15,441 nucleotides of DNA, from contig JAITDR010000017.1 in assembly GCA_031282465.1 (NCBI GenBank), forward strand, positions 1 through 15,441. Reading direction: 5' to 3'. Under the pieces are notes generated by a model that saw only the letters and a program-made list of their open reading frames with translations, searched no databases and had not been told where the DNA came from. Made by a program: the position numbers and the translations under genes. Below, in pieces: positions 1-15,441 of the stretch (positions within the stretch are counted from its first letter, which is position 1; every line of letters starts with the position of its first letter). This DNA is from Desulfovibrio sp. Lineage in GTDB: Bacteria; Desulfobacterota; Desulfovibrionia; Desulfovibrionales; Desulfovibrionaceae.

Positions 1-365
1 ACAGCCCCCAAGGAAGGGTCGTCGTCCAACGCCTTCAGCAAGGGTGGAAGGAAGCCGGGCGTGAGCAGCGTGTCGTTGTTGAGAAAAAAGAGCAGGGGCG
101 CGGCGGCCGCACAGGCGCCCGCGTTGCAGGCCGGTCCGAAATTTCTGTTTTCCGGAAAACGCAGCAGGTGGAACGCCTCGCCGAACAAGCCCCTGCCCAA
201 CGGCTCAAGTTCCGTTGCCGTGGCATCACTGGAGCCGTTGTCAGCGACAACGACCTCATAATCAGCGCCCGCAGTGTGTTCGCGCAGGCTGTTCAGGCAG
301 TCGCGGGTCATCTCCCAGCCGTTGAAGACGGGGATAATGACGGATACTTGGGGTGAGGCGGACAC
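1..365 (-). CDS. Family 2 glycosyltransferase, N-terminal part (cut by window edge)
   Basis: Only the first 121 codons lie in the window; the gene continues past position 1. The start is a GTG at 365-363, preceded by GGAGG at 380-376. The protein opens with the GT2 nucleotide-binding strand VSVIIPVFNGW (residues 7-17). It continues with DNGSSD (42-47), then NRNFGPACNAG (73-83) and FFLNNDT (93-99), where NND takes the place of the metal-binding DXD motif. This is the GT-A fold layout of rhamnosyltransferase-like GT2 enzymes, which move a sugar from a nucleotide donor to a lipid-linked or polysaccharide acceptor at the inner membrane face. It lies 58 bases downstream of trmFO on the same strand and is probably the last gene seen of the cheZ-trmFO operon. 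The acceptor cannot be told from this fragment. Confidence 0.88.
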   Translation of the reverse strand, partial: MSASPQVSVIIPVFNGWEMTRDCLNSLREHTAGADYEVVVADNGSSDATATELEPLGRGLFGEAFHLLRFPENRNFGPACNAGACAAAAPLLFFLNNDTLLTPGFLPPLLKALDDDPSLGA

Positions 366-423
366 GGCAGCTTATCCTCCGGATCTACTCCGACGTTGTT
401 GTGAGCAAAGCAAAACAGCGATG

Positions 424-1770
424 CTATATCCCGTGTGTATCCTTCCAGGAGCGGAAGCGGGCATGCGCCCGCTCCGCGTAAAGGCGTCTGCGTTCGGGTT
501 TGCGTGCCTTGGCGTTCAGGGGGGGCATCAGGCCGAACTGCGCGTTGCTCGGCTGAAAATGCGGATTCGGAGCGCGCAGGTGCTCAAGCAGCGCTCCCAG
601 GGCCGTTTCCGGCGGCGGCGGGGGTAAATATGTCCCGCGCGCCCGCGCGGCCAGATGTCTGCCCAGCCACAAGCCGCAGGACGCAGACTCCATATAGCCT
701 TCCATTCCGGTGATCTGTCCCGCAAGGAAGATGCCGGGGGCGGACTTCAGCGAAAGATCCTCCGCCAGCACCTTCGGGGCATTGACGAACGTATTGCGGT
801 GCATGCTGCCCAGGCGCGCGAATTCCGCGCGTTCCAGGCCGGGAACCAGGCGAAACACGCGTTCCTGTTCGCCGTACGCCAGCTTGGTCTGGCATCCCAC
901 GAGGTTGAACATGTCCCGGTTCAGGTTTTCAGGGCGCAACTGCAACAGGGCGAACGGACGTTCGCCCGTGCGCGGGTCGATGAACCCCACGGGCTTCATG
1001 GGCCCGAAGGCCAAGGTCATGAAACCGCGTTCCGCCAGGGTTTCGATCGGCATGCAGCCCTCAAAGTGTTTTTCGTCTTCAAAGGCGCGGGTCGGGACAC
1101 GTCTGCCCGCCGTCAGGGCCGCGTGGAAGCGCGCGTATTCGTCGCGGTTCATGGGACAGTTCAGGTAATCTCCGTCTTCCGGGTTGCGGCGCGAAGCCGC
1201 AAAGACGACCTCCCGGTTCAGCGTCGCGCCGTCCACTATCGGGGCCACGGCATCGTAAAAATACAGAGAATCTTCCCCGGTCAACACGGCGAGCGACGCG
1301 GCCAGGGCTTCGCCGGGCAGCGGGCCGGCGGCGACGATCAGGGCGTCGTATCCCTGCGGGGCCGCCTCGCGGTAAGGGTCGCCCGGCACTCCCAGAGAGA
1401 GTATCTCCTTGCGCTCAACGCGGATGCCGGGATGGGCCGACACGCGCGCGGTCATCCACGCGGCGAACCGCTGCCGGTCCACGGCCAAAGCCTTGCCCGC
1501 AGGCACCTTTGTCGCATCCGCCGCCTGCATGCACAGGCTGCCCAGGGCTCGCATTTCTTCTTTCAGTATGCCCGCGGCCGAATGCGGATCTTCGGAGCGG
1601 AAAGAGTTGGAACAGACCAGTTCCGCAAAATCGGAACCGACATGCGCTCCGGAAAAGCGCAAGGGTTTCATTTCAAAGAGCGTGACCGGGATGCCGGCAT
1701 CCGCCAGGGCAACGGCGCATTCACAGCCGGCGAGTCCCGCCCCGACAACCGCCGCGGAGGCAGGGAACAT
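424..1770 (-). CDS. trmFO: Methylenetetrahydrofolate--tRNA-(uracil-54-C5)-methyltransferase TrmFO
   Basis: TrmFO makes 5-methyluridine at position 54 in the tRNA T-loop, using methylene-tetrahydrofolate as carbon donor and reduced FAD plus NAD(P)H as reductant. The 448-residue product is close to the usual 435-450. It has an N-terminal Rossmann FAD motif VVGAGLAGCECA (residues 8-19). AELVCSNSFRSED (49-61) carries Cys53, and FEGCMPIE (236-243) carries Cys239; these match the two active-site cysteines known in Bacillus subtilis TrmFO (Cys53 and Cys226). TGEDSLYFYDAVAPIV (164-179) and FGPMKPVG are further family hallmarks. The ATG at 1770 follows AGGAAG, and only 9 bases separate it from the cheZ stop, so the two genes are co-transcribed. 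The identification is secure; nothing is truncated. Confidence 0.97.
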   Translation of the reverse strand: MFPASAAVVGAGLAGCECAVALADAGIPVTLFEMKPLRFSGAHVGSDFAELVCSNSFRSEDPHSAAGILKEEMRALGSLCMQAADATKVPAGKALAVDRQRFAAWMTARVSAHPGIRVERKEILSLGVPGDPYREAAPQGYDALIVAAGPLPGEALAASLAVLTGEDSLYFYDAVAPIVDGATLNREVVFAASRRNPEDGDYLNCPMNRDEYARFHAALTAGRRVPTRAFEDEKHFEGCMPIETLAERGFMTLAFGPMKPVGFIDPRTGERPFALLQLRPENLNRDMFNLVGCQTKLAYGEQERVFRLVPGLERAEFARLGSMHRNTFVNAPKVLAEDLSLKSAPGIFLAGQITGMEGYMESASCGLWLGRHLAARARGTYLPPPPPETALGALLEHLRAPNPHFQPSNAQFGLMPPLNAKARKPERRRLYAERAHARFRSWKDTHGI

Positions 1771-1779
1771 ACGGGCTTC

Positions 1780-2520
1780 CTAAAGTCCCAGGCCGGCGAG
1801 CAGTTCGTCCACCGCAGCCTGCGATGTGCCCGTCTGCGGACCTTTCAGTTCGGAATGCTTGATTTCGGCGACCCTGCGCCGGCTGTCCTCGGCGATTTCG
1901 GCGATGTCCTTTTCCGGGGTTTCTTCGCGCGTCTTCATCATCAGTCCTGTGGAAACGTAAAGATCGAAAACGGTTTCCCGGATGGACTCCAAAGCGGCAA
2001 CGACCTTTTTCAGGCGCTGGCCGGTCAGGTCCTGAAAACTCAACTCGGAGACGATCCGCGCCAGCGAATGTTCGAGCGCGCGGTTCAGGGTGCCGAGGCG
2101 GGCCAGGTTTTTTTCGTGTTCCGGGCCGAGTTCGAGGGAGGCGATGATTGCGCCCGCCTCAAGCTGCTGCTCCTGCAATGTTTCCACGGTTTCCATGATG
2201 TTTTCCGTGGCCCGCAGGGTGGTTGCCGTAATCTCCTCAAGCTGTTTGGAAGCGTCGCTGAACAATTTCTGCGTTTGCCCGGAATTGTCCGCCGCCGCAC
2301 CGTCGGCCGAAGCGCTGGAGATTTCCCTGTAGATGCCGCGCAGACCGCTGAGCATCTCGTCATTGACCTTACGGTAAAACTCGCTTTCCACCGCGGCATT
2401 TGCCATGCCCGCGGAGAGCCCGCGCTGCACGGCATCGACGACGGTTTGCTTGACGGTTTCCGCTACGGCGTCCGCCACGCGTTCGATCACCCGCTCCATG
2501 AGTTGTTCCTGAGAAATCAT
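1780..2520 (-). CDS. cheZ: Protein phosphatase CheZ (CheY-P dephosphorylation)
   Basis: CheZ stimulates dephosphorylation of the chemotaxis response regulator CheY-P. The predicted protein (246 residues) is almost all helix and carries FQDLTGQ (residues 162-168). Its Asp164 and Gln168 correspond to E. coli CheZ Asp143 and the catalytic Gln147. The C-terminus keeps a GPQ spacer and ends in AVDELLAGLGL, equivalent to the E. coli CheY-binding tail DQVDDLLDSLGF. I chose the ATG at 2520, which follows GGAGG at a short spacing. An in-frame ATG at 2586 or TTG at 2592 would add 22 or 24 low-complexity residues, but neither has a ribosome site, and a TACAAT -10-like hexamer (2577-2572, minus strand) would lie downstream of them. 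First gene of the operon with trmFO; divergent from the lipoprotein gene. Confidence 0.9.
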   Translation of the reverse strand: MISQEQLMERVIERVADAVAETVKQTVVDAVQRGLSAGMANAAVESEFYRKVNDEMLSGLRGIYREISSASADGAAADNSGQTQKLFSDASKQLEEITATTLRATENIMETVETLQEQQLEAGAIIASLELGPEHEKNLARLGTLNRALEHSLARIVSELSFQDLTGQRLKKVVAALESIRETVFDLYVSTGLMMKTREETPEKDIAEIAEDSRRRVAEIKHSELKGPQTGTSQAAVDELLAGLGL

Positions 2521-2539
2521 ACGGCCTCCGGCAGGAACG

Positions 2540-2557
2540 GCCCGGCTGCTGCCGGGC
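2540..2557 (-). promoter_or_regulatory. Perfect 7-bp hairpin in the cheZ leader
   Basis: GCCCGGC (2540-2546) and GCCGGGC (2551-2557) form a perfect 7-bp stem with a 4-base loop, 20 bases upstream of the chosen cheZ start. No T-run follows on either strand, so it is not a classical terminator. It could affect message stability or translation of cheZ. Part of the 130-base divergent region between cheZ and the lipoprotein gene. Confidence 0.25.
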
Positions 2558-2650
2558 TGGTTCTCCGTTGCATTGTAGTGTATCATGGGCAAAAAGAAAA
2601 GCCGGGCGGAGGCGCTGTGTCGCGCTTCCTTGCCGGTCCGGGAGGTTGCC

Positions 2651-2809
2651 GTGTCGCTGTTCGGAACACTGTGCGGATGCGGGCGTGTATTGTTGCCTGC
2701 CGTGTTGCTGCTTGCCCTTGCCGCGGCGTCATGCGCCGACAGTCATGTCAATGTCCGCGGACAGTACGATTTTTCCACGGGATATGTGAAGGGCCTGCCC
2801 GCGCGCTGA
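2651..2809 (+). CDS. Small predicted lipoprotein (52 residues)
   Basis: A 52-codon gene starting at GTG 2651, chosen because GGGAGG lies 5 bases upstream; the earlier in-frame ATG at 2585 has no ribosome site. Residues 1-29 form a hydrophobic export signal (core VLLPAVLLLALAA) ending in a lipobox-like AASC, so lipidation at Cys30 is predicted; cleavage after SCA by signal peptidase I is an alternative. The short mature part contains VNVRGQYDFSTGYVK, a compact beta-like segment that I associate from memory with tiny lipoproteins in sulfate reducers, but I cannot verify this. It lies 23 bases upstream of the aminotransferase ATG on the same strand and could share its transcript. Function unknown. 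Confidence 0.6.
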   Translation: MSLFGTLCGCGRVLLPAVLLLALAAASCADSHVNVRGQYDFSTGYVKGLPAR

Positions 2810-2832
2810 GCGGGAAACCGCTTGAAATACCT

Positions 2833-4065
2833 ATGCGCGAATTACCGCCGACGGACGGTCTGCCTCTGCAGGCGGGCGATTTCTTCCGCAAGCCGCCCAA
2901 GCCTCTGGACGCCGGTCTGGCCGAGATGTTCGGCCTGCCCGAAGTCACCCTGACCTGTTCGGGCACGGCGGCGCTGGTCGTCATCCTGCACACCCTGCGC
3001 GCGTTGCGTCCGCGACGCGACGAGGTCGTCGTCCCCGCCTACACCTGTCCTCTGGTTCCCCTGGCCGTTGCCCTTGTTCCCGGTCTGCATCCCGTGGCCT
3101 GCGACACGGCGCCTCTGAGTTTCGACTTTGATCCGGAGATGCTGCCGCGCCTGTGCTCGGACAGGACGCTGGCCGTGATCCCCGCCCACCTGGGCGGGCT
3201 GGTCGCGGACACGGCCCCGGTATCGGCAGCGGCGCTGCGCTGCGGGGCCGCTTTGGTGGAGGACGCGGCGCAGGCCGTGGGCGCGCGCGTCGCGGGACAA
3301 AGCGTCGGTTCGGCCGGGGACGCGGCCTTTTTCAGTCTGGCCGCCGGCAAGGGATTGACCACCTATGAGGGAGGAGGCCTGTTCAGCGCCGATCCGAAGC
3401 TCGCCGCCCTGCTGCGGCAAACGGCGCAACGCCTGTTGCGTCCGCATGCGCTGTGGACCTTGCGCCGGAACATTGAGCTCGCGGCCTACGCATTTTTTTA
3501 CCGACCGGACCGCCTGCGTTTTGTGTACGGCATACCCTTGCGCCGCGCTTTGGCTCAGGGGCGGGAAGACAAGGCTGCGGGCGATAGTTTTACAGCGGAC
3601 GACATCCCCCTGCACAGCCTGGACGCGTTACGCGCCCGCACGGCCGCCAACGCCCTGCCGCGCCTGCCCGCGCATCTGGAAGCGGGCAGACGGCGGGCCG
3701 CGGCGCGTCTCGACGCGCTGCTTTCTCTGCCCGGCGTGTTTGTTTTTCGTGACAGACCAGGCACGGAAGGCACGCGTCCCTTCTTCATGCTGCTCATGCC
3801 GGGTGCGGAACAGCGCGCCGAGGCACTGAAACGACTGTGGGGTGCGGGGCTCGGCGTTTCCAGGCTCTTTGTCCGGGCCTTGCCGGACTATGCGTCCACG
3901 GCGTCGCTTTTTGACGGATCTCCGCCCTGTCCCCATGCACGCGACCTGGCGGAGCGTATGCTCACTGTTTCCAACTCCGCCGCGCTTGACGAAGAAAGCT
4001 TCCGGCATATCACCGAGACACTGCGCGCATGTCTTGAAGCAGTGCCTGTGCGGGCTGATTTGTAA
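2833..4065 (+). CDS. DegT/DnrJ/EryC1/StrS-family PLP-dependent aminotransferase
   Basis: The 410-residue protein begins at the only ATG in the frame near the homologous start (2833; weak ribosome site, 23 bases after the lipoprotein gene). It shows the fold-type I aminotransferase layout: PLQAGDFF at the N-terminus (11-18), TCSGTAAL (41-48) for PLP phosphate binding, VPAYTC (67-72), VEDAAQAVGA (142-151) with Asp144 facing the PLP pyridine nitrogen, and FFSLAAGKGLTTYEGGG (166-182) with Lys173 as the likely Schiff-base lysine. Family members usually aminate keto-sugars bound to nucleotides, but some act on other ketones or aldehydes. The context (a FemAB-like acyltransferase and an arginase-like enzyme) does not fix the substrate. 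The last codons and stop are repeated upstream of the GNAT gene (see 4045-4077). Long, with a divergent middle (200-240). Confidence 0.9.
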   Translation: MRELPPTDGLPLQAGDFFRKPPKPLDAGLAEMFGLPEVTLTCSGTAALVVILHTLRALRPRRDEVVVPAYTCPLVPLAVALVPGLHPVACDTAPLSFDFDPEMLPRLCSDRTLAVIPAHLGGLVADTAPVSAAALRCGAALVEDAAQAVGARVAGQSVGSAGDAAFFSLAAGKGLTTYEGGGLFSADPKLAALLRQTAQRLLRPHALWTLRRNIELAAYAFFYRPDRLRFVYGIPLRRALAQGREDKAAGDSFTADDIPLHSLDALRARTAANALPRLPAHLEAGRRRAAARLDALLSLPGVFVFRDRPGTEGTRPFFMLLMPGAEQRAEALKRLWGAGLGVSRLFVRALPDYASTASLFDGSPPCPHARDLAERMLTVSNSAALDEESFRHITETLRACLEAVPVRADL

Positions 4066-4077
4066 AAACGCCGCAAT
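4045..4077 (+). repeat. Left copy of direct repeat flanking the TA island
   Basis: Bases 4042-4070 match 4956-4984 at 23 of 29 positions, including CCTGTGCGG without mismatch. After a 5-base gap in alignment, CCGCAAT (4071-4077) matches 4990-4996 exactly. In this copy the sequence encodes the real aminotransferase end (PVRADL, stop), followed by a dead version of the GNAT start in which GTG has become GTA. The right edge touches the toxin stop codon. Confidence 0.7.
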
Positions 4078-4346
4078 TATTTGTACACTTTACTCCTGTG
4101 CCCTATACCAACTACTAAAATAATAATTTCTTTGTCCCTGATGTCGCAAATAATCCTGGAATCACCTACTCTGTATCTCCATAAGCCGGAAAAGCGTTTA
4201 TCTTTAAGTGCCTCACCGATACATCGCGGATTTTCCAATGTTGCAACTCTTTTAACTAAAAAATTTCTAATACGGTTTTGTTCGCTATAAGAAAATTTTG
4301 CAAATTGTTTTTCCACAATATCTGCAAAATTAATTATCCATGCCAA
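4077..4346 (-). CDS. RelE/ParE-superfamily toxin of a type II TA module
   Basis: A small basic protein of 89 residues if started at the TTG at 4346, or 96 if at the ATG at 4367. I prefer TTG because GGAG lies 7 bases upstream and because the protein then begins MAWIINF, like typical family members. The C-terminal half has LWRYRVGDSRIICDI and ends in GHRSKVYK, the RelE-type core. Its arginines and final tyrosine lie where E. coli RelE has Arg61, Arg81 and Tyr87. Such toxins cut mRNA on the ribosome; some ParE relatives inhibit gyrase instead. It overlaps the antitoxin gene by 17 bases, the usual antitoxin-first order with translational coupling. It faces the aminotransferase gene with only 11 bases between the two stops. 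Strongly AT-rich against its neighbours, so probably acquired. Confidence 0.9.
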   Translation of the reverse strand: MAWIINFADIVEKQFAKFSYSEQNRIRNFLVKRVATLENPRCIGEALKDKRFSGLWRYRVGDSRIICDIRDKEIIILVVGIGHRSKVYK

Positions 4347-4584
4347 GGCGATGCTCCATTTCTTCAAGAGAAATTATATTTATCGTTCCATTGTTAATAC
4401 CGTCTAATACAATTTTTGCATTTTCTATATCTTCCATGTCTTCAAGATATCTCTCAACAGCTTCCAAGGCTAATTGTATATTTGTTATACCTTCACGCCT
4501 TGCAAAGTCTTCAAGCCTGCTGTACAATTCAGAGCTTAGAGGTAGTGTTATATCCGTATTCTTTTGGATATCTGTATCTTGCAT
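4330..4584 (-). CDS. RelB-type ribbon-helix-helix antitoxin
   Basis: The antitoxin (84 residues) starts at ATG 4584, preceded by AAGGAAGGG six bases upstream; an upstream GTG at 4605 has no comparable site. Residues 10-17 (TDITLPLS) form the ribbon strand, followed by two helices covering SSELYSRLEDFARREG and NIQLALEAVERYLED. This is the DNA-binding RHH arrangement. The C-terminal part (NIISLEEMEHRLGMDN) is the typical toxin-wrapping tail of RelB-like antitoxins. It should bind and neutralise the RelE-like toxin and repress its own promoter through an operator upstream; candidates are the inverted repeats at 4614-4639 and 4769-4789. Base composition is low GC, like the toxin. Confidence 0.88.
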   Translation of the reverse strand: MQDTDIQKNTDITLPLSSELYSRLEDFARREGITNIQLALEAVERYLEDMEDIENAKIVLDGINNGTINIISLEEMEHRLGMDN

Positions 4585-4613
4585 TTTTTGCCCTTCCTTA
4601 TTCACTTCTCAAA

Positions 4614-4639
4614 GCAAAATTACGTCTATGCAGTTTTGC
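4614..4639. repeat. Inverted repeat upstream of the antitoxin (possible operator)
   Basis: GCAAAA (4614-4619) and TTTTGC (4634-4639) are perfect inverted arms 14 bases apart, beginning 30 bases upstream of the antitoxin start. Position and size would suit an RHH repressor site, but the arms are short and the assignment is inference. Confidence 0.3.
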
Positions 4640-4699
4640 GCTGCCGGTTGCGAGGCGGCACGTTCTCGTCTTGCCTCGCGCTCTACTTGACCTTTCGCC

Positions 4700-4733
4700 G
4701 TGCAGGCCTGTCGTGCCCGCCCAATCCCGGATA
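4700..4733. repeat. Dispersed repeat, copy 1
   Basis: Bases 4700-4733 match 7071-7104 at 27 of 34 positions without gaps, sharing GGCCTGTC and CCAATCCCGGATA. The copies lie in two intergenic regions about 2.4 kb apart, in the same orientation. No coding function is apparent; a small dispersed non-coding element or remnant is likely. Confidence 0.5.
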
Positions 4734-4768
4734 AAATCGCGGCCATGTTGATATAGGATTGAATTTAG

Positions 4769-4789
4769 CGACATTCTATGCAAATGTCG
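4769..4789. repeat. Perfect 7-bp inverted repeat
   Basis: CGACATT (4769-4775) and AATGTCG (4783-4789) are perfect inverted arms around a 7-base loop. The element is about 185 bases upstream of the antitoxin start, so it may be an operator for a more distant promoter, or a structural edge of the island. No T-run follows. Confidence 0.35.
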
Positions 4790-4866
4790 ACTCACAAATC
4801 AATCCCGTCACAGCAAATTCTTGAGTTTTCTCTATAACCGAAGATATTTTTCTGTTTTCATAAAAA

Positions 4867-4896
4867 TTGTGATATTTCGCTGTGATAATGTATATC
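4867..4896 (+). promoter_or_regulatory. Candidate promoter for the GNAT-arginase pair
   Basis: TTGTGA (4867-4872) and TATATC (4891-4896) are separated by 18 bases and would start transcription near 4903. The TA island separates the GNAT gene from its presumed ancestral promoter upstream of the aminotransferase, so a promoter here would make sense. Both hexamers are imperfect and the region is AT-rich, so chance matches are likely. Confidence 0.25.
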
Positions 4897-4922
4897 TTGC
4901 CGAAAATCGGGATTACCTGAAT

Positions 4923-4979
4923 ATGACAATGTTGCTGCGGAATCGGCATACGGCTGCGCCTGTGCGGACGGACTTGTGA
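4923..4979 (+). pseudogene. Vestigial 3' end of the aminotransferase gene
   Basis: An 18-codon open stretch from ATG 4923 ends in AAPVRTDL and TGA. It aligns without gaps to the last 18 codons and stop of the aminotransferase (ending AVPVRADL), with 9 of 18 residues identical and the best match in the last eight. Its TGA (4977-4979) overlaps the GTG start of the GNAT gene (4976-4978). This looks like the original gene junction, left behind when the TA island split the operon. An alternative reading is a short leader peptide that couples translation into the GNAT gene; it may in effect do that now. Confidence 0.6.
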
Positions 4980-4996
4980 AGACGTGCCCCCGCAAT
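4959..4996 (+). repeat. Right copy of direct repeat flanking the TA island
   Basis: Counterpart of 4045-4077. This copy contains the real GNAT start (GTG at 4976 and the codons for KTCPRN), preceded by the dead aminotransferase tail. Differences from the left copy fall mainly at third codon positions of whichever gene end is still alive. The period between copies is about 914 bases. Confidence 0.7.
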
Positions 4997-6061
4997 CTGC
5001 TGGAACCGCCCGCGTTTGCCGGGCTTTTCCGGGCCTGTCCGCCGGAGGGCTTCACCGTATCCCCGCGTTCCGAGTTGAACGTATTCCGCGCCGAGTATGA
5101 CCTGCTGACCACGTTGGACAGAGATATACCCGCCTTCCTGCGCCGGTCTGCCGGCGTTGCGCGCCGGTCCGGCCTGTTCAGGGTTCGGGCGGCTTTTGTC
5201 GGCAGCACGGTGACCGAGTACGCAATCCTGCCCCGCGCGTCCGGCCCGGAGGATATCCTGGACGCCGTGCTGCGGGAACGGGACGGACGCGACCGCATCA
5301 CCGTGATCAAGGATTTGCCGGACGCTTCCCCGCTTCTGAACGCGGAAGACAACGCCTTTGCCGATGCACTGGTGCGCTCGGCCCGCGCGCGCGGCTTCTT
5401 TACCCTGAGCGGACAGGCCCTGGCCTATGTGCCGATTGATTTCTCAAGCACGGACGAGTATCTGTCCCGCTTGTCCGCGGGCAGGCGCAAGGATCTGCGC
5501 CGCAAGCTGCGGCGCGGCCCCCGGCCGGACCCGGAAATCATCGCATGCGGCGACCCCCGCTGCTCCGACCCGGCCTTTGCGGACGAGATATATGCCCTGT
5601 ATCGCGCGGTCTATGATCAGAGCGAGGTGCATTTCGACCTCCTGAGCCGCGAATTCTTCGCGAGCCTGTTGCGGAGCCGGGATGCCGGCGCGCTGCTCTT
5701 TCTCTATCGGCACAAAGGAGAAACGGTGGGCTGGAATCTCTGCCTGGCGCACAACGGCCTGCTGATCGACAAGTACGTCGGCTTCCGCTACCCTGCCGCC
5801 AGAGAGCTGAACCTGTATTTCCTGAGCTGGCTGTTCAATCTGGAGTATGCCGTGAACAACGGCTTCAAAACCTACATCGCCGGTTGGACGGACCCGGAGG
5901 TCAAGGCCGGCCTGGGAGCATCCTTCACCTTCACCCGTCATGCGGTGCTGGTGCACAACCCCGTGCTGCGCGCCGCGCTGTATCCTCTGCGCCGCTTCTT
6001 TGAAGCGGACAGGGCGTCGTTTGCCGCTTCCGCAAAACCGCATTCGGACGAAAACGCGTGA
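4976..6061 (+). CDS. GNAT-fold acyltransferase, FemAB/BioF2-like (PF13480 type)
   Basis: The 361-residue protein starts at GTG 4976, with only a weak GGA-rich ribosome site, and overlaps the dead aminotransferase tail. The basic stretch SAGRRKDLRRKLRR (167-180), the following DEIYALYRAVYDQSEVHF, LLFLYRHKGETVGWNLCL and the tail half of a second GNAT domain are typical of BioF2/FemAB-like acyltransferases. Relatives transfer acyl or aminoacyl groups to amines, for example in cell-wall crossbridges or secondary metabolites; the substrate here is unknown. No signal peptide or membrane segment is visible, so it should be cytoplasmic. Its stop overlaps the arginase-like start by four bases (GTGA), implying translational coupling and joint function. 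In its present position it is separated from the aminotransferase gene by the TA island. Confidence 0.82.
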   Translation: MKTCPRNLLEPPAFAGLFRACPPEGFTVSPRSELNVFRAEYDLLTTLDRDIPAFLRRSAGVARRSGLFRVRAAFVGSTVTEYAILPRASGPEDILDAVLRERDGRDRITVIKDLPDASPLLNAEDNAFADALVRSARARGFFTLSGQALAYVPIDFSSTDEYLSRLSAGRRKDLRRKLRRGPRPDPEIIACGDPRCSDPAFADEIYALYRAVYDQSEVHFDLLSREFFASLLRSRDAGALLFLYRHKGETVGWNLCLAHNGLLIDKYVGFRYPAARELNLYFLSWLFNLEYAVNNGFKTYIAGWTDPEVKAGLGASFTFTRHAVLVHNPVLRAALYPLRRFFEADRASFAASAKPHSDENA

Positions 6062-7032
6062 ACGGGGACGCGCCGGCGCCTGCTTTCGGCGCGCCCCCCG
6101 CATCGCCCGGGCTTGATTGCGGCGTGTCCCGCCCCTCGCTTGCGCTTGATTTCAACGCGTCCGCTCCGCCGCTTGTGCTTGACTTCGACGCGTCCGTCCT
6201 GCCGCTTGAGCCGGATGAACGGCGCATCCCCCTCGGGGAATGGCGGGAGCGCATAGGCTTCGGCTGTTCCCGGCGCGATTTCGCCCGCCTGGAAACCTTT
6301 CTCGACCGCGCCATGCCTGCGGCGCACGGGCCGGTGTTCCTCGGCAGCGGCGATTTCCATCATGTTTCCCTTGCCCTGCTGCGCAGGCTCATCCGCGCTC
6401 ATGCGTCCGCACCCGCTTCACTTGATCTGGTGATTCTCGACAATCACCCGGACAACATGCTCTACCCCTTCGGCGTACACTGCGGTTCCTGGGCGGGCCG
6501 CGCCGCCGCTCTCGAGGCCGTGCGGCATGTGCATGTCGCGGGCATCACGTCGCCGGACATCGGTCTTCTGCATGCCTGGGAGAATGATTGCAGGCCTTTT
6601 TTGCGGAAGAAACTGACCTGGTGGAGCGTAGGCCGGCACGCGCCGTTGCCGTCCTTGATCGCCGGGAAAGAGCACGCCCGCTGCTTTCGCTCGGTCGACG
6701 CATTGCTTGCCGCGTTTTTGCCGCGTCTGCGGGACATGGAGAACGTCTATCTTTCTGTGGACAAGGATGTGCTGCATCCTGATGCGGTTTACACCGGGTG
6801 GGATCAGGGGCTTTTCCGGCCGGAGCATGTGGAAGCCGTCGCGGCGTGCTGTGCAGGGCGGCTGGTCGGTGTCGACATTTGCGGTGATTATGCGCGCCGC
6901 TCTTACCGGAGCATCGGCAAACGCCTGCTCTGCCGTCTGGACGGGCTTGAGGGTGCCCCTCCCGTGGATGCGCAACGCATCGGGGAGCGCGGCAGGGAAA
7001 TCAATGTGAAAATTCTGGAAGCACTGCGCTGA
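6058..7032 (+). CDS. Arginase/ureohydrolase-superfamily protein of unknown substrate
   Basis: The GTG at 6058 overlaps the GNAT stop. The 324-residue product has the dimanganese site of the arginase fold. GSGDFHH (96-102) stands for the first histidine loop (GGDHS in arginase), LDNHPDN (127-133) for DAHxD with Asp128, His130 and Asp132, and SVDKDVLHPD (233-242) for SxDxDxxDP with Asp235 and Asp237. GVDICGD (271-277) fills the later acidic segment. The family hydrolyses C-N bonds of guanidines (arginine, agmatine, formimidoylglutamate, guanidinobutyrate). The DNHPDN variant and the W-rich middle (TWWSVG) differ from classical arginase and agmatinase, so the substrate is open. The first 47 residues are an extension built from three 11-residue repeats. 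An internal GTG at codon 40 could serve as a start but has no ribosome site. Confidence 0.85.
   Translation: MNGDAPAPAFGAPPASPGLDCGVSRPSLALDFNASAPPLVLDFDASVLPLEPDERRIPLGEWRERIGFGCSRRDFARLETFLDRAMPAAHGPVFLGSGDFHHVSLALLRRLIRAHASAPASLDLVILDNHPDNMLYPFGVHCGSWAGRAAALEAVRHVHVAGITSPDIGLLHAWENDCRPFLRKKLTWWSVGRHAPLPSLIAGKEHARCFRSVDALLAAFLPRLRDMENVYLSVDKDVLHPDAVYTGWDQGLFRPEHVEAVAACCAGRLVGVDICGDYARRSYRSIGKRLLCRLDGLEGAPPVDAQRIGERGREINVKILEALR
6103..6201 (+). repeat. Three 33-bp tandem repeats inside the arginase-like gene
   Basis: Units 6103-6135, 6136-6168 and 6169-6201 follow without gaps. Units 2 and 3 agree at 26 of 33 bases, and units 1 and 2 at 22 of 33. They encode SPGLDCGVSRP, SLALDFNASAP and PLVLDFDASVL, keeping the frame. 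The last unit is the native beginning of the fold, so the earlier two look like stepwise duplications. Confidence 0.7.
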
Positions 7033-7034
7033 AA

Positions 7035-7129
7035 CGCGCCGAAAAGTGACCGCCGGTTCGTTTTGTCGGCGTGCCGGCCTGTCCCGCTGTTCCAATCCCG
7101 GATACCGGCAGGCAAGGGTGATCCGGGAT
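7035..7129. terminator. Inverted repeats in convergent intergenic region (possible bidirectional terminator)
   Basis: Two structures lie between the arginase-like stop and the O-methyltransferase stop. Arms at 7035-7045 and 7061-7073 pair through GCCGA/TCGGC plus an A/T extension with one bulge. ATCCCGGAT (7095-7103) and ATCCGGGAT (7121-7129) are a perfect 9-bp inverted repeat with a 17-base loop. Neither has a clean T-run beyond the stem, so transcription stop is inferred from the convergent setting. Confidence 0.4.
7071..7104. repeat. Dispersed repeat, copy 2
   Basis: Second copy of the element at 4700-4733 (27 of 34 bases identical, same orientation). Its CCCGGAT end is also the left arm of the 9-bp inverted repeat at 7095-7129, which copy 1 lacks. 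Confidence 0.5.
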
Positions 7130-7143
7130 CGGACACAGCGGAT

Positions 7144-7803
7144 TCAGCCGAGGCGCAGGGACAATTCGACGCCCTCGGAGAGCCGCGCAGACAAGTAGCC
7201 TCCAGCGGGCGACCGCACACGCGCCAGATACTCGGGATTGTGGTCGGCATCGTCGGCCAGGACCAACGCGCCCGGCCTGAGGCGGCTCTCCGTCAGGCTC
7301 AAAATTTCGGGATACAACGCCTTGGCGCCGTCGAGCAGGAGCATGTCGATGTTTTCCGGAAGATCGGCGCGAAACGTCTGCAGAGCGTCGCCCTCCCGGA
7401 GTTCCACCAGATCGGTAAGACCGCCTTCCGCCAGATTTTGTCGGGCGCGTGCCGCCTTGGACGCCTCGAACTCGCCGGTGATGAGGATGCCGCCGCCGTT
7501 GTCCCGCAAGGCCGCGGCAAGGTGCAGGGTCGATAGTCCGAACGAGGTCCCGAACTCGACGATAGCCCGCGCTCCGCAACTCCGCGCAAGCATATAGAGC
7601 AGCCTGCCGGTTTCCCGCGAAACGGCGAGCGGGAAATCCTTGAGGCTGCCGTAGAAGTCGAGATACTCGGTCCGACTCCGCATCAGGCGCTCCACCTCCG
7701 AAGCGGAGAGATGGGCCACCGCGGCCCTTGTCGCAGGCTCCGCAGCGGCGGCTTCGCTGAACAGGCGGTCCAGCAGGGGGGCAAGATTGGTCAAGGTGTT
7801 CAT
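7144..7803 (-). CDS. SAM-dependent O-methyltransferase (class I, catechol/caffeoyl-type)
   Basis: The 219-residue protein starts at ATG 7803, which has GGAG seven bases upstream; a TTG farther up at 7851 is unsupported and would lie at the edge of the terminator T-run. It shows the class I Rossmann methyltransferase order: motif I VEFGTSFG (82-89), acidic end of strand 2 TGEFEASKA (109-117), GDAL (138-141), LLLDGAK (155-161) with Asp158, and LADDADHNPE (182-191). The D-G-A-K and DD-x-D positions match metal-dependent O-methyltransferases of family 3 (COMT-like). The hydroxylated small-molecule substrate cannot be told. It stands alone on the minus strand, convergent with the arginase-like gene and divergent from metE, and its leader contains an intrinsic terminator. 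Confidence 0.88.
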   Translation of the reverse strand: MNTLTNLAPLLDRLFSEAAAAEPATRAAVAHLSASEVERLMRSRTEYLDFYGSLKDFPLAVSRETGRLLYMLARSCGARAIVEFGTSFGLSTLHLAAALRDNGGGILITGEFEASKAARARQNLAEGGLTDLVELREGDALQTFRADLPENIDMLLLDGAKALYPEILSLTESRLRPGALVLADDADHNPEYLARVRSPAGGYLSARLSEGVELSLRLG

Positions 7804-7849
7804 GGCGGTACTCCAGCTTGGGTATGCCGCAGCATCGGGTCGGGAATGC

Positions 7850-7897
7850 AAAAAAACAACGCATCCCGTCCCCGCCGTTGCGGGAGGTGATGCGTTG
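7850..7897 (-). terminator. Strong intrinsic terminator upstream of the O-methyltransferase (attenuator candidate)
   Basis: On the minus strand, CAACGCATC pairs with GATGCGTTG (plus-strand 7857-7865 with 7889-7897). An inner CCCGC/GCGGG stem (7871-7875 with 7880-7884) closes a 4-base loop, and seven T residues (7856-7850) follow directly. It lies 47 bases before the O-methyltransferase start, so it can only end a minus-strand RNA made upstream. In the same RNA, GCGTT just upstream could pair with the AACGC of the 5' arm and act as antiterminator. Confidence 0.8.
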
Positions 7898-7941
7898 AGT
7901 GACGTTAACGCTTACGCGACAAGCCGTAAGGCTTGTGTATG
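7850..7941 (-). ncRNA. Predicted short leader RNA or sRNA ending at the attenuator
   Basis: If the promoter at 7947-7975 is used, a roughly 90-base minus-strand RNA would run from about 7940 to the terminator T-run. It would contain a perfect hairpin (ACAAGCC/GGCTTGT, 7919-7936, 4-base loop) and the terminator hairpin. I do not recognise a known riboswitch class. It may be an attenuation leader of the methyltransferase gene, or an independent small RNA. Confidence 0.35.
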
Positions 7942-7946
7942 GAAGC

Positions 7947-7975
7947 TGTTTACAGGATGCGCTCCATGCCGTCAA
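7947..7975 (-). promoter_or_regulatory. Candidate minus-strand promoter for the leader RNA
   Basis: Reading the minus strand, TTGACG (7975-7970) is followed after 17 bases by TAAACA (7952-7947). The -35 box is good and the -10 box is poor. It is the best candidate between the metE promoter and the terminator. Confidence 0.3.
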
Positions 7976-7993
7976 GGGTGCGCGAAAAATGCC

Positions 7994-8022
7994 TTGACAG
8001 CCTTGCCGCCTTTATATATCAA
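7994..8022 (+). promoter_or_regulatory. Promoter of metE
   Basis: A consensus -35 TTGACA (7994-7999) and TATCAA (8017-8022) lie 17 bases apart within an AT-rich run. The start would be near 8030, just before the first stem of the cobalamin riboswitch at 8034, which supports the assignment. Confidence 0.6.
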
Positions 8023-8033
8023 TTTATTCAGAT

Positions 8034-8179
8034 ATTGTGATAAAAACGGAAAGCGGTGCAAAGCCGCTGCGGACGCGCCACCGTAACCGGCAAAATCCAG
8101 CCGAAGCCACTGTCTGCCGAAAGCGGGCGGGAAGGCGAGGCATCTGTGGGCCGGGAGCCGGGAGACGACTTGTCACAAT
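8034..8179 (+). promoter_or_regulatory. Cobalamin (vitamin B12) riboswitch
   Basis: The aptamer is closed by ATTGTGA (8034-8040) pairing with TCACAAT (8173-8179). Inside, in the family order, are GGAAAGCGGTGCAAAGCCG (8048-8066), the GCGCCACCGTAACC segment (about 8075-8088), AGCCACTG (8105-8112), GGGAAGGCG (8129-8137) and the B12 box GAGCCGGGAGAC. These are hallmarks of the adenosyl/methylcobalamin riboswitch family. It sits between the metE promoter and gene, where B12 binding should block expression of the B12-independent enzyme. Confidence 0.92.
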
Positions 8180-8287
8180 CGCCGCGACAGGCGCGGCACG
8201 GCAGTACTGTCTCGCGTACAGGCAACTTGCCCCATCTGTTCAGGGTGCGCGACGCGCCCCGGCCGTTGAACTACGTGAACGGACTGC

Positions 8288-8312
8288 CCTTTCAAACCAC
8301 TTTTGAAAGGAG
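8288..8312 (+). promoter_or_regulatory. Shine-Dalgarno hairpin before metE (riboswitch expression platform)
   Basis: CCTTTCAAA (8288-8296) and TTTGAAAGG (8302-8310) form a perfect 9-bp stem with a 5-base loop. The 3' arm contains the first bases of the ribosome site GAAAGGAG (8305-8312), so the folded form hides it. No terminator T-run occurs between the aptamer and metE, which points to translational control. Confidence 0.65.
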
Positions 8313-8317
8313 CAACC

Positions 8318-10600
8318 ATGCGCATTCACATCCTCGGTTTTCCCTCCATCGGGAAACGGCGGGAGCAGAAACAGGCTCTCGAAGCTTTCTGGGACGGCGC
8401 TCTTTCCGTCGACGCCCTCTCCGCGACATGCACGGAACTGAAAAAACGCCACTGGCATATACAGAAGGAATCCGGTCTTGATTATGTGAGTACCGGCGAT
8501 TTCTCCCTGTATGACCGCATGCTGGACGTAACCTGCATGCTCGGCGCGCTGCCGGAGCGCTTCACGCCGTGCCTCGGCGATGCCCCCACGGACAGGTATT
8601 TCAGTCTGGCGCGCGGCAATGCGGAACGCAACACAGCCCCCCTGGAAATGACCAAGTGGTTCGACACCAATTACCATTACCTTGTGCCGGAAATCGACAG
8701 TGACCGCCCCTGGACCGCCGGCACGCACCCGGTCGTCGCCGACACCAAGTCGGCCCGTGAACTCGGTTTTTCGCCCAAGCCCGCGATTATCGGGCCGTTT
8801 ACCTGGCTGACCCCGGCAAAAGCGCCGCGGGACGTTCTCAAGTGGTCGCGGCTTGATGCCGTCGTCTCCTCCTACGTGAACCTGCTGACCGGCCTTGCCC
8901 CCTATTGCGACTGCATCCAGATCGAGGAGCCGGTACTGTGCACGGAACTTCTGCCGGATGACATCCGCGGACGCTTTCACGAAGCATACGCGACGCTGAA
9001 CGCGGCCTGCCCGAAACTTATGCTGACGACCTATTTCGGGGCGCTCGGGCGCAATCTGCAAACCGCCGTCGGGTCCGGTTGCGCCGTTCTGCATGTCGAT
9101 ATGGTGCGCGGCCGGAAACAGTTCGACGACATTCTGAACGCGCTTCCACGTGATATGGCGCTGTCGCTCGGCGTAGTAGACGGACGCAATATTTGGAAAA
9201 TCGATTATTCCACGGTAGTTCCGCTTATCAAGCGGGCCGTTTCCGCGCTCGGCAAAGACCGCGTTCTTTCGGGCTCAAGTTGCTCGCTGCTCCATTGCCC
9301 TGTGGACGTGACGGAAGAAACGGCCCTGCCGGAACATATCAGGAACCGCATGGCCTTCGCCGTCCAGAAATGCGCTGAACTGTCGACGTTGCGCGACATT
9401 ATCGAGAAAGAAGGCGCGGGCTCCGCAGGGGGGTATGCGGCAGCCGCGTATGCCGCGCCGGCGCAGCCCCGCGAGCAGCATCCCGCCGGCCGCGTCGAGG
9501 CGGTTCGGGAACGCGTCGCCGCCGTCACGCCGGACATGCTTTCGCGCCGCTCCCCCTATCCGGAACGCCGCGCCGCCCAAGCCCGGCTCAATCTGCCGCC
9601 GCTGCCCGCGACGACCATCGGCTCGTTTCCGCAGACCGATGCCATCCGCAAAACGCGACTGGACTACAAACGCGGAACCATTTCGGAAGCGGATTATGTC
9701 GCCGTCATCCGGAGCGAAATCCGCAAGTGCATCGAAAAACAGGAACAACTCGGCCTTGACGTTCTTGTTCACGGCGAAGCAGAGCGCAACGACATGGTGG
9801 AGTATTTCGGCCAACAGCTCGGCGGATTCTGCTTTACGCAAAACGGCTGGGTGCAGAGTTACGGAAGCCGCTGCGTAAAGCCGCCGGTCATATACGGCGA
9901 CGTCTACCGCAAACATCCCATGACCACGGACTGGATACTCTACGCGCAGTCACTTACGAAAAAGCCGGTCAAAGGCATGTTGACCGGGCCGGTGACGATT
10001 CTGTGCTGGAGTTTTGTGCGTGACGATTTGGAGCGCAGCGAAGTCTGCAAACAGATTGCCCTGGCCGTTCGTGACGAAGTGCAAAGCCTGGAAAAGGCAG
10101 GCATCCGCGTCATCCAGATTGACGAGGCCGCCCTTCGCGAAGGCATGCCGTTGACCCGCGACGAGGCGGAAGTGTACCTGCGTTGGGCTGTGGATGCCTT
10201 TCGCCTTGCCGCGTCGGGAGTGGATGACTCCACGCAGATACACTCCCACATGTGCTACAGCGAATTCAATTCCATCCTGACCTGGATAGCCGAAATGGAT
10301 GCGGACGTCATCAGCATTGAAGCGAGCCGCAGCGGCATGGAACTGCTGGACGCGTTCACCGACGTTCACTATCAAGGCGCGGTCGGGCCGGGCGTGTACG
10401 ACATCCACAGTCCGCGCATTCCGACGGAAGAAGAAATAACGCGGCTGCTGCGCAGGGCGTTGCGCCATATACCCGAAGACCAACTGTGGGTGAATCCCGA
10501 TTGCGGACTGAAAACGCGCCGCTGGGAAGAAGCATGGCCGTCGCTGCAACACATGGTTGCCGCCGCCGCGCGGTTGCGCGCCGAAACGGCGCGCCGCTGA
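8318..10600 (+). CDS. metE: Cobalamin-independent methionine synthase MetE
   Basis: MetE moves the methyl group of 5-methyltetrahydropteroyl-triglutamate to homocysteine in the last step of methionine synthesis, in the cytoplasm. The 760-residue length is normal (E. coli 753). The ATG at 8318 follows AAAGGAG and begins MRIHILGFPSIGKRREQK. The duplicated barrel is complete: folate-binding N-terminal half (to about 360), a low-complexity linker (about 375-400, rich in Ala, Pro and Gln), and the catalytic half beginning TTIGSFPQT. Zinc ligands are visible as HSHMC (His644, Cys646), ISIEASRS (Glu668) and NPDCG (Cys729). These match E. coli His641, Cys643, Glu665 and Cys726 with a constant offset of three. 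The B12 riboswitch upstream suggests the cell also has B12-dependent MetH and uses MetE when B12 is short. Confidence 0.98.
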   Translation: MRIHILGFPSIGKRREQKQALEAFWDGALSVDALSATCTELKKRHWHIQKESGLDYVSTGDFSLYDRMLDVTCMLGALPERFTPCLGDAPTDRYFSLARGNAERNTAPLEMTKWFDTNYHYLVPEIDSDRPWTAGTHPVVADTKSARELGFSPKPAIIGPFTWLTPAKAPRDVLKWSRLDAVVSSYVNLLTGLAPYCDCIQIEEPVLCTELLPDDIRGRFHEAYATLNAACPKLMLTTYFGALGRNLQTAVGSGCAVLHVDMVRGRKQFDDILNALPRDMALSLGVVDGRNIWKIDYSTVVPLIKRAVSALGKDRVLSGSSCSLLHCPVDVTEETALPEHIRNRMAFAVQKCAELSTLRDIIEKEGAGSAGGYAAAAYAAPAQPREQHPAGRVEAVRERVAAVTPDMLSRRSPYPERRAAQARLNLPPLPATTIGSFPQTDAIRKTRLDYKRGTISEADYVAVIRSEIRKCIEKQEQLGLDVLVHGEAERNDMVEYFGQQLGGFCFTQNGWVQSYGSRCVKPPVIYGDVYRKHPMTTDWILYAQSLTKKPVKGMLTGPVTILCWSFVRDDLERSEVCKQIALAVRDEVQSLEKAGIRVIQIDEAALREGMPLTRDEAEVYLRWAVDAFRLAASGVDDSTQIHSHMCYSEFNSILTWIAEMDADVISIEASRSGMELLDAFTDVHYQGAVGPGVYDIHSPRIPTEEEITRLLRRALRHIPEDQLWVNPDCGLKTRRWEEAWPSLQHMVAAAARLRAETARR

Positions 10601-10602
10601 AA

Positions 10603-10683
10603 CCGGGCGCGGCTTCGGGTTGCCGCCGACGGAACCGCTCCGCGTCCGATGCGTCGACCCGAAGCCGCCCCGGCCGGCTTTTT
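10603..10683 (+). terminator. Intrinsic terminator of metE
   Basis: Arms 10609-10620 and 10657-10668 are a perfect 12-bp inverted repeat (GCGGCTTCGGGT and its complement). CCGGG/CCCGG (10603-10607 with 10669-10673) extends it past one bulged C. A five-T run (10679-10683) follows closely. The loop is long (36 bases). Confidence 0.7.
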
Positions 10684-10707
10684 CCTCGTCAATGACAATT
10701 TTTTACG

Positions 10708-10737
10708 TTGTCCCTGCCGAAAATACCCGGTTATATT
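10708..10737 (+). promoter_or_regulatory. Candidate promoter of the decayed chemoreceptor gene
   Basis: TTGTCC (10708-10713) and TATATT (10732-10737) lie 18 bases apart after the metE terminator, about 110 bases before the first codon of the pseudogene. It could be the vestigial promoter of that gene, or still feed the intact chemoreceptor downstream. Confidence 0.3.
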
Positions 10738-10854
10738 CCGTCAGTGTATTACCCGAAGCGTATTCTTTTCCGGCGCCTTCCACCCCGCGGAGAGAAGCCG
10801 GCCGGCATGTCTCCTCCCTGAAGAGAGAGGCTTCAAGCCATAACGACATTTCTG

Positions 10855-11323
10855 ATGAAAATTGACAAAAAACTGCTGCTGCCCGCAGGTACGACAATTG
10901 TTGCCCTGGTTACTGCGTATCGCGTTACAGATTACTATGTGCTTACAGACTATGGGGCCTCAACGATGCAAGCCGCTCTGTTTACCGCATCAAAGGCAAT
11001 ACAATGTTACCTTGACTAAAGTATGCGTATGTGCTGTGCTGCAGCCGGGGAGTTCGACGCGGATAAGGCGTCGGCGCAGGCGGTTGCGGAAAAGGACCAG
11101 CCGTTTGCCGAAACCTGTGCGGATGCAATAAATTCCCTTGCCGGAGCCGGTCTTGACCATAGTCGACACGGAAACTGCCGTATGTGAGGGAGGCCGCTCT
11201 GTAAAAGCGGGTAGTGCATTGGAGTTCGACCGGATCGGCGCGGCGCTTCCTCCGAGGCAGGGCAAAACAATTCTCGTATGGAGTATAATAACCACAAAAA
11301 CCGAACGTGTTATGGAACAGTAG
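10855..11323 (+). pseudogene. Remnant of a chemoreceptor periplasmic (Cache-like) sensor domain
   Basis: An ATG at 10855 opens MKIDKKLLLPAGTTIVALVT, the usual cytoplasmic tip and first membrane helix of a methyl-accepting chemotaxis protein. The frame meets TAA after 54 codons (11017), then stays open and coding-like (EFDADKASAQAVAEKDQPFA) up to 11187. From about 11150 the sense moves into another frame (LTIVDTETAVCEGGRSVKAG, later GKTILVWSIITTKTE), stopping at 11321. The order resembles the Cache sensor domains of sulfate reducers. The second membrane helix, HAMP and signalling domain are missing. One stop, one frameshift and a 3' deletion make it a decayed gene, lying just upstream of the intact receptor. 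The family assignment is by eye. The rest of the 802-base interval (10601-11402) holds only regulatory candidates. Confidence 0.55.
11284..11289 (+). promoter_or_regulatory. Consensus -10 hexamer upstream of the chemoreceptor
   Basis: TATAAT at 11284-11289 is a perfect -10 box inside the pseudogene, about 114 bases before the receptor start. No good -35 box precedes it. A weak flagellar-sigma-like arrangement (TAAA near 11341, then GCGGGAAA) lies closer to the gene, but matches too poorly to call. Confidence 0.3.
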
Positions 11324-11402
11324 AGAAAATAGCGCATTGATAAACCTGTAAGCACGCTGCGGGAAAAGATCCCGGCATCAAACGCTTCGAGGAGTAAGAA
11401 CG

Positions 11403-13817: not shown

Positions 13818-13883
13818 AGTCTTTCAGCATTGAGTTGCTCTCAAATATACAGCATCACCGCGTCATTGTCGCAGGATGAAGGC

Positions 13884-13924
13884 GAAACAACGAGGGGCCG
13901 GATTATCCGGCCCCTTGTTGTTTC
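13884..13924. terminator. Bidirectional intrinsic terminator
   Basis: GAAACAAC (13884-13891) pairs with GTTGTTTC (13917-13924), enclosing GGGGCCGGA/TCCGGCCCC around a TTA loop. T-rich ends arise on both strands, and TTTCG is repeated three times just after it on the plus strand. It lies between the convergent chemoreceptor and permease genes, 20 bases from the permease stop. Confidence 0.9.
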
Positions 13925-13944
13925 GTTTCGTTTCGAGATGCCTG

Positions 13945-15264: not shown

Positions 15265-15417
15265 AAGGCAAACCCTCTCGTAGTAAAAGTGTCCGCCGGG
15301 CGTTCCCTGAGGAACATCGCGCAGGCGCCGTTCCGGTCACACGCGGCATACAGGCTTCGGAAGCGGTCCGACCCGTCCGCCGGTCTCCGGTCCTTCCTGA
15401 ACCCTGATCCGTCCGCT

Positions 15418-15441
15418 GTCCCGTTGTCCCGTTGTCCGTCC
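15418..15441. repeat. Short tandem repeat at the window edge
   Basis: Two exact copies of GTCCCGTT and a third partial copy (GTCCGTCC) run to the end of the window. They lie 150-180 bases upstream of the permease gene. The rest of that leader (15265-15417) shows no clear promoter. Confidence 0.5.

Follow-up and report, generated by a model that had tools for sequence, protein, structure and literature searches.

A toxin-antitoxin pair inserted with a long target duplication at an overlapping gene junction in Desulfovibrio

How can a toxin-antitoxin (TA) pair settle at the joint of two overlapping genes and leave each neighbour with a working end? This question is raised by contig JAITDR010000017.1 of Desulfovibrio sp. 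(assembly GCA_031282465.1), of which we analysed positions 1–15,441 (the window; 15,441 bp). The genome is metagenome-derived and 67% complete in 277 contigs. Here, an 886-bp insert (4067–4952) carrying a RelB/RelE-type pair separates a gene for a DegT/DnrJ/EryC1-type aminotransferase from one for a GNAT/FemAB-like acyltransferase (GNAT). An initial annotation, made from the letters alone, had proposed that the TA module was inserted exactly at a coupled gene junction and lies between diverged copies of that junction. Our data partly support that interpretation: the duplication of the junction around the insert is confirmed, and several of the further claims did not survive.

The plus strand carries the aminotransferase/GNAT junction twice, at 4039–4066 and 4953–4980, as 28-bp copies with 22 of 28 bases identical (six differences); an ungapped alignment can be drawn over 32 bp, with 25 identical bases and seven differences. 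The left copy holds the TAA at which the live aminotransferase gene now stops and a dead GNAT start, in which GTG has become GTA; read from the letters, it also has a 5-base gap relative to the right copy. The right copy holds the live GNAT start, with a TGA overlapping the GTG. These details are as first described, as is the GTGA overlap between GNAT and the arginase-like gene that follows it. A chance resemblance had been named as an outcome that would undo the proposal, and the repeat score of 14.5 was reached by none of 400 dinucleotide shuffles (maximum 14.0) and by none of 202 spaced control pairs (maximum 13.0). The local statistics are modest but clear, that is, moderately significant. 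The folds of both copies are unremarkable (z 0.07 and -0.11).

We regard the comparison with a sister species, genome G013, as the decisive proof of the duplication. Its contig C182 has about 90% DNA identity to the window over the operon, and the homology falls into two BLAST segments, window 2822–4066 and 4953–7153, both of which cover the same 28 bases of G013 (C182 8448–8475). G013 has no insert at this joint and its aminotransferase end, TTGTGA, lies over the GNAT GTG, which is the empty site that the initial annotation had proposed to look for in relatives. The locus thus combines an empty target in a close relative with a direct repeat of the target at its two ends that measures 28 bp or more and exceeds the usual length of duplications made by insertion sequences (IS).

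The ancestral overlap of the two genes, also part of the first proposal, is borne out more widely. We examined 86 loci for the joint, some genomes being counted twice. An aminotransferase match on the same strand and at most 2.5 kb upstream of GNAT was found in 9 of the 86 rows, which represent seven distinct genomes; the remaining 77 rows, including that of G007, have no aminotransferase match there and are uninformative on the joint. In all seven genomes the stop lies inside GTGA or ATGA with the GTG or ATG in frame with the GNAT match, giving a 4-bp overlap and no insert, although in one of them (G002) the GNAT match comes in two pieces and the gene may be broken or misread. The insert is accordingly missing at the joint in G013 and six other genomes with the gene pair. 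Other inserts at this joint, which would have marked it as the integration hot spot once suggested, were found in none of the seven. By GNAT protein, the nearest named relatives are the Desulfovibrio metagenome-assembled isolates Nm470_bin82 (90%) and Nc350_bin1 (87%), which we take to be of termite-gut origin.

How far does the duplication extend? Past the 5-base gap the copies share a further match, CCGCAAT, of a kind met at only 720 of 112,786 places (0.6%), and because such a match is rare the duplicated segment may reach 43 bp. On the other side, positions 4922–4952 are identical to the left aminotransferase end at 14 of 31 bases (as good at 1.4% of places) and to the G013 aminotransferase end at 15 of 31 (as good at 0.5%). 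This identity of 45–48%, against 79% within the duplication, makes 4922–4952 a poor fit as part of the copy, and a longer duplication of about 59 bp, up to the end of an IS relic at 4921, was set aside. To describe the dead aminotransferase tail on the right as 18 codons with nine identical residues therefore overstates the copy. This tail takes part in an 18-codon leader open reading frame (ORF; 4923–4979, plus strand), whose TGA overlaps the GNAT GTG.

Both TA genes lie on the minus strand and follow the type II RelBE/ParE layout, with the antitoxin gene first and a small, overlapping toxin gene behind it. The RelB-family antitoxin (4330–4584; the ATG at 4584 was favoured by eye over the GTG at 4605) matches NF048017 with 57.6 bits (cut-off 50) and has no match in Pfam. 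The toxin of the RelE/ParE superfamily (4077–4346; TTG start picked by eye) overlaps the antitoxin end and stops 10 bases from the left junction copy. It matches PF05016 with 46.3 bits (cut-off 23), phrog_1213 (RelE-like toxin) and a relative of solved structure (PDB 2khe, E 1.1e-19), and scores 23.6 bits against TIGR02385 (RelE_StbE), under the cut-off of 27.9 for that family. The pair is intact, and toxicity and its neutralisation are predicted. A promoter scan of 3950–5100 returned eight sites against 2.2 (standard deviation 1.5) in shuffles, three of which, between 4612 and 4802 on the minus strand, coincide with the antitoxin start or lie upstream of it.

The insert had been described as carrying little besides RelB/RelE, and this proved incorrect: about 350 bp of repeat, IS-relic and other sequence lie upstream of the antitoxin. 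A degenerate copy (4600–4764) of a dispersed repeat, rich in palindromes and with ends read by eye as ATTC...GAAT, immediately precedes the TA ribosome-binding region. With 4600–4745 as query, some match (E at most 0.05) was obtained in 9 of 15 genomes of the genus; the first half is matched in 7 of the 15, the window's own genome included. G014 alone has 20 matches, and several of the repeat matches lie at contig ends. In appearance the repeat is a non-autonomous mobile element of the genus. Copies of about 165–185 bp with these ends recur at L143, L117, L128, L131 and other loci besides 4600–4764, and part of the same repeat stands at 7066–7104, downstream of the arginase-like gene, as it does in G013 (L096 10559–10599). 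A short hairpin (4765–4800; z -2.8, 4 of 200 shuffles as good) separates the repeat from the IS relic.

The relic (4858–4921, plus strand) is similar to multicopy IS ends in G010 and to one end in G013; by eye, the boundaries coincide. It stops 31 bp short of the duplication. Attempts to name the IS gave little. For its C-terminal fragment, Pfam gave nothing and the plasmids one weak match (32%, E 0.05), and an 89-residue ORF beside one G010 end found only itself in 15 genomes, with only a weak DUF3991 match. A UPF0236 search returned no match, but none for its 14 controls either, and so carries no information. Pairing of the IS-end flanks for the length of the duplication gave at most six self-complementary bases and no usable pair. 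Among the G010 ends (L196–L225; 38 listed, 30 distinct flanks tested), TTG starts 17–19 bases past the IS end in 13 of 30, where control windows of three offsets have a mean of 2.2 and a maximum of 6, and 5 of the 30 also carry TAnnnT at promoter spacing. This placement resembles that of Mutator-type elements of the ISKra4 group, which are described as inserting upstream of promoters in the passages considered of PMC3942029.

A source for the insert was sought in several places. Among 199 genomes of the family, with as a rule the two best candidates scored per genome, no further copy was found besides small repeat matches and one 68% match to the toxin gene (G047). Compared with the TA loci, the non-TA pieces of the insert match only the window itself, apart from 12–19-base words. 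Four pattern matches in viral_contigs, a search that detects close relatives only, yielded no confirmed phage source, and among 444 plasmid records the best listed match has 50.6% identity, so that no near donor emerged there. We also put 30 toxin loci, this one included, through a rough test for flanking repeats in which some flanks were short. Of the other 29, all but L149 were long enough, and 27 of those 28 lack a flanking repeat beyond every shuffle. The last, L147 in G007, has a 13-mer that beat all 40 shuffles; it was set aside, its left copy lying in a palindrome.

When did the insertion take place? The two copies differ at 21% of positions, and third codon positions differ between the two species by 15–18%; by this comparison the insertion is old, as the initial annotation had offered as one of two readings, and close to the species split, which fits an event soon after the separation from G013. 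The other reading, that a variant gene end arrived with the insert, is disfavoured by the sites themselves. Across the two copies and G013, five sites are changed in the left copy only, one in the right copy only, and at three the left and right copies agree with each other and differ from G013. Those three, few as they are, favour duplication within this lineage over import.

The account that we favour, though only tentatively, is a transposase-free insertion with long target duplication. An 886-bp fragment comprising the TA pair, an old copy of the dispersed repeat and an old IS end would have entered the 4-bp aminotransferase/GNAT overlap in the lineage of this species, following the split from G013. 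The joining would have copied a junction segment of 28 bp or more (up to 43, perhaps) onto both sides, by fill-in around the captured fragment either at a break with long staggered ends or through a template switch at a fork, and would not require an encoded transposase or recombinase. Each neighbour would thereby have gained a junction of its own, the left gene keeping its stop and GNAT its start and ribosome-binding region, and the left copy would later have lost a GNAT start that had become superfluous. Expression of GNAT and the arginase-like gene would now have to pass through the insert or start within it, and the 18-codon leader may keep GNAT translationally coupled. Since an insertion that did not duplicate the overlap would cost one gene its stop or the other its start, the exact fit of the duplication to the junction would reflect survivorship rather than targeting.

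Illegitimate insertion is the simplest account in view of what was sought and not found. Besides three ORFs of 45–57 residues, there are five non-TA ORFs of 65–164 residues in or overlapping the insert; the scan covered these five, which have no match in Pfam or PHROGs, and no recombinase family such as an integrase-borne islet would encode is found among the scanned insert ORFs. Terminal inverted repeats are likewise absent (4059–4108 against 4913–4962; 1356 of 2000 shuffles score as well). Taken together with the lack of a convincing dif-like pair, of a second copy and of a second insert, and with an IS relic that falls short of the duplication, these results leave illegitimate joining as the most economical explanation. 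The site-specific islet that had been suggested finds no support, as neither a recombinase family in the scanned ORFs nor a convincing dif-like pair was seen.

Several observations weigh against this account. At 8 of 28 positions the left copy disagrees with G013, more than the gene average would give (p 0.003), and the copies differ from each other at 6 of 28 (p 0.045), slightly above that average; both would be expected of an imported variant. The exact junction is shown by only one sufficiently close relative, G013, in which a precise deletion between the repeats could also have produced the empty site. The promoter scan has no plus-strand site right of 4528, so none for GNAT in the insert. 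Finally, a very similar scar would be expected from a long-stagger transposase lost in the meantime.

That last point is the core of the main rival, transposition by an element of the IS1202 group or an IS1549/IS1634-like element with the TA pair as passenger and with transposase and ends since decayed or deleted. Elements with target duplications of this length do exist, contrary to what was first assumed: in the source passages considered, 16–28 bp are given for the IS1202 group and 8–514 bp for IS1549/IS1634. The duplication seen here, 28 bp if not more, matches the IS1202 range, and an IS relic is present in the insert. These elements, however, encode a transposase and have defined ends, and neither was found here. 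The insert ends lack inverted repeats, the ORFs scanned contain no transposase family (the large DDE transposase of the IS1202 group included), the relic ends 31 bp before the duplication begins, and its G010 relatives look like an IS that inserts upstream of promoters. We consider this route possible but clearly doubtful.

Integration through short homology, with incoming DNA that carried its own variant of the aminotransferase end and left it as the left copy, is unlikely. It would account for the excess of differences from G013 in the left copy, which comes after just two in the preceding 31 bases; the right copy, in comparison, differs from G013 at 4 of 28 (p 0.28). The three sites that unite both copies against G013 run counter to it, and the 5:1 split of the six differences between left and right is not significant (p 0.22). 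Moreover, under import one side should be donor-derived, yet to either side of the 10-base core that the copies share, it is the right one that is nearer to G013 (5 of 5 and 11 of 13 bases, against 3 of 5 and 9 of 13 for the left), which counts against import.

The remaining explanations fare worse. A two-step route, in which slippage first duplicated the junction in tandem and ordinary DNA then entered between the copies, yields the same final structure, and short tandem duplications are common; the insertion must nevertheless fall between the copies, and we judge this less economical scheme improbable. An assembly chimera might be suspected in a genome of this completeness and fragmentation, but the two junction neighbourhoods share no exact word of more than 10 bases, which would not suffice for a k-mer join, and both flanks are native to the operon, so that an artefact is very improbable. 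Least credible of all is a module moved by host XerCD with the 28-bp copies as Xer sites, as in the dif modules of Acinetobacter, which we reject: length, TA cargo and the failure to find a recombinase would suit it, and the left copy agrees with the dif-like consensus at 15 of 28 positions (a score met at only 22 of 30,828 window places), but the right copy, which the G013 junction resembles, agrees at only 10 of 28, and the likely dif of the genus, CCATAATGTAAATTATGTTAA, which 11 of 15 genomes have exactly and two others with a single change, is unlike either copy.

The live aminotransferase gene (2833–4065, plus strand; PF01041, E 6e-39) has 90.8% DNA identity to G013 up to 4066. GNAT (4976–6061, plus strand; PF13480, PF04339) and the arginase-like gene (6058–7032, plus strand; PF00491) differ from G013 by 24/17/55 changes at first, second and third codon positions over 360 codons and by 21/23/54 over 323 codons, respectively, figures that include the G013 branch. 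Divergence mainly at third positions is consistent with continued selection on both genes despite the interruption. G007 has the GNAT and arginase genes without an upstream aminotransferase gene, and a methyltransferase gene that lies downstream in the window lies upstream there, so the neighbourhood has been rearranged between close species. Among the best 80 of 193 relatives, the pairing of GNAT with an arginase-like gene is widespread, occurring in Comamonas, Rhodanobacter, Gilliamella, Acinetobacter and others, and in most cases no aminotransferase accompanies it.

Insertion with a long target duplication of restriction-modification genes was reportedly described by Nobusato et al. in 2000. 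In the passages considered of PMC1643837 and PMC3031569, such genes insert with long and variable target duplications. The likeness lies in an addiction-type gene set, a long direct target duplication and its recognition against a related genome; here, by difference, the cargo is a TA pair, the organism a relative of Desulfovibrio and the target a junction at which two genes overlap. TA pairs in intercistronic positions are described, in the parts considered of PMC7167474, for relA-mazEF-mazG, dinB-yafNO-yafP and folA-ccd-apaH, where, as here, the TA pair lies inside an operon that is undisturbed in other strains. The folA-apaH site has repetitive extragenic palindromic (REP) sequences and our insert a dispersed repeat; unlike in those cases, the neighbours here overlapped, a duplication scar of 28 bp or more can be read and the TA genes run antiparallel to the operon. 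A Microcystis ParE/ParD-like pair of the same broad superfamily lies between two direct repeats (passages of PMC7935541), but these are 152 bp long, identical and downstream of a gene stop, whereas ours lie over a gene overlap. In the passages considered that join "long target duplication" with "toxin-antitoxin", the exact phrase occurs in reference lists. We regard insertion with long target duplication as a known kind of event and a TA pair at an overlapping junction as a variant of it, and make no claim that TA cases are absent from print.

In the parts considered of a 2020 review, the means by which TA systems integrate are called unelucidated (PMC7167474), and on this the locus is a useful datum: its scar is readable, its TA pair is intact, the insertion can be dated roughly and a sister species shows the empty site. 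We put forward, as a speculation that we ourselves think unlikely to hold in general, that a transposase-free route which copies a long stretch of target, as proposed for restriction-modification genes, lets small TA pairs spread both inside a genome and from one genome to another, and that tightly coupled operon joints preserve its scar because both neighbours are restored by the copied overlap. On the survivorship reading, TA pairs between genes that overlap in relatives would show target duplications covering the overlap wherever a close relative with the empty site exists, and insertions in ordinary intergenic DNA would need no such duplication. If the speculation is true, the TA pairs found between operon genes in chromosomes would go back to old insertions with long duplications, their scars by now eroded.

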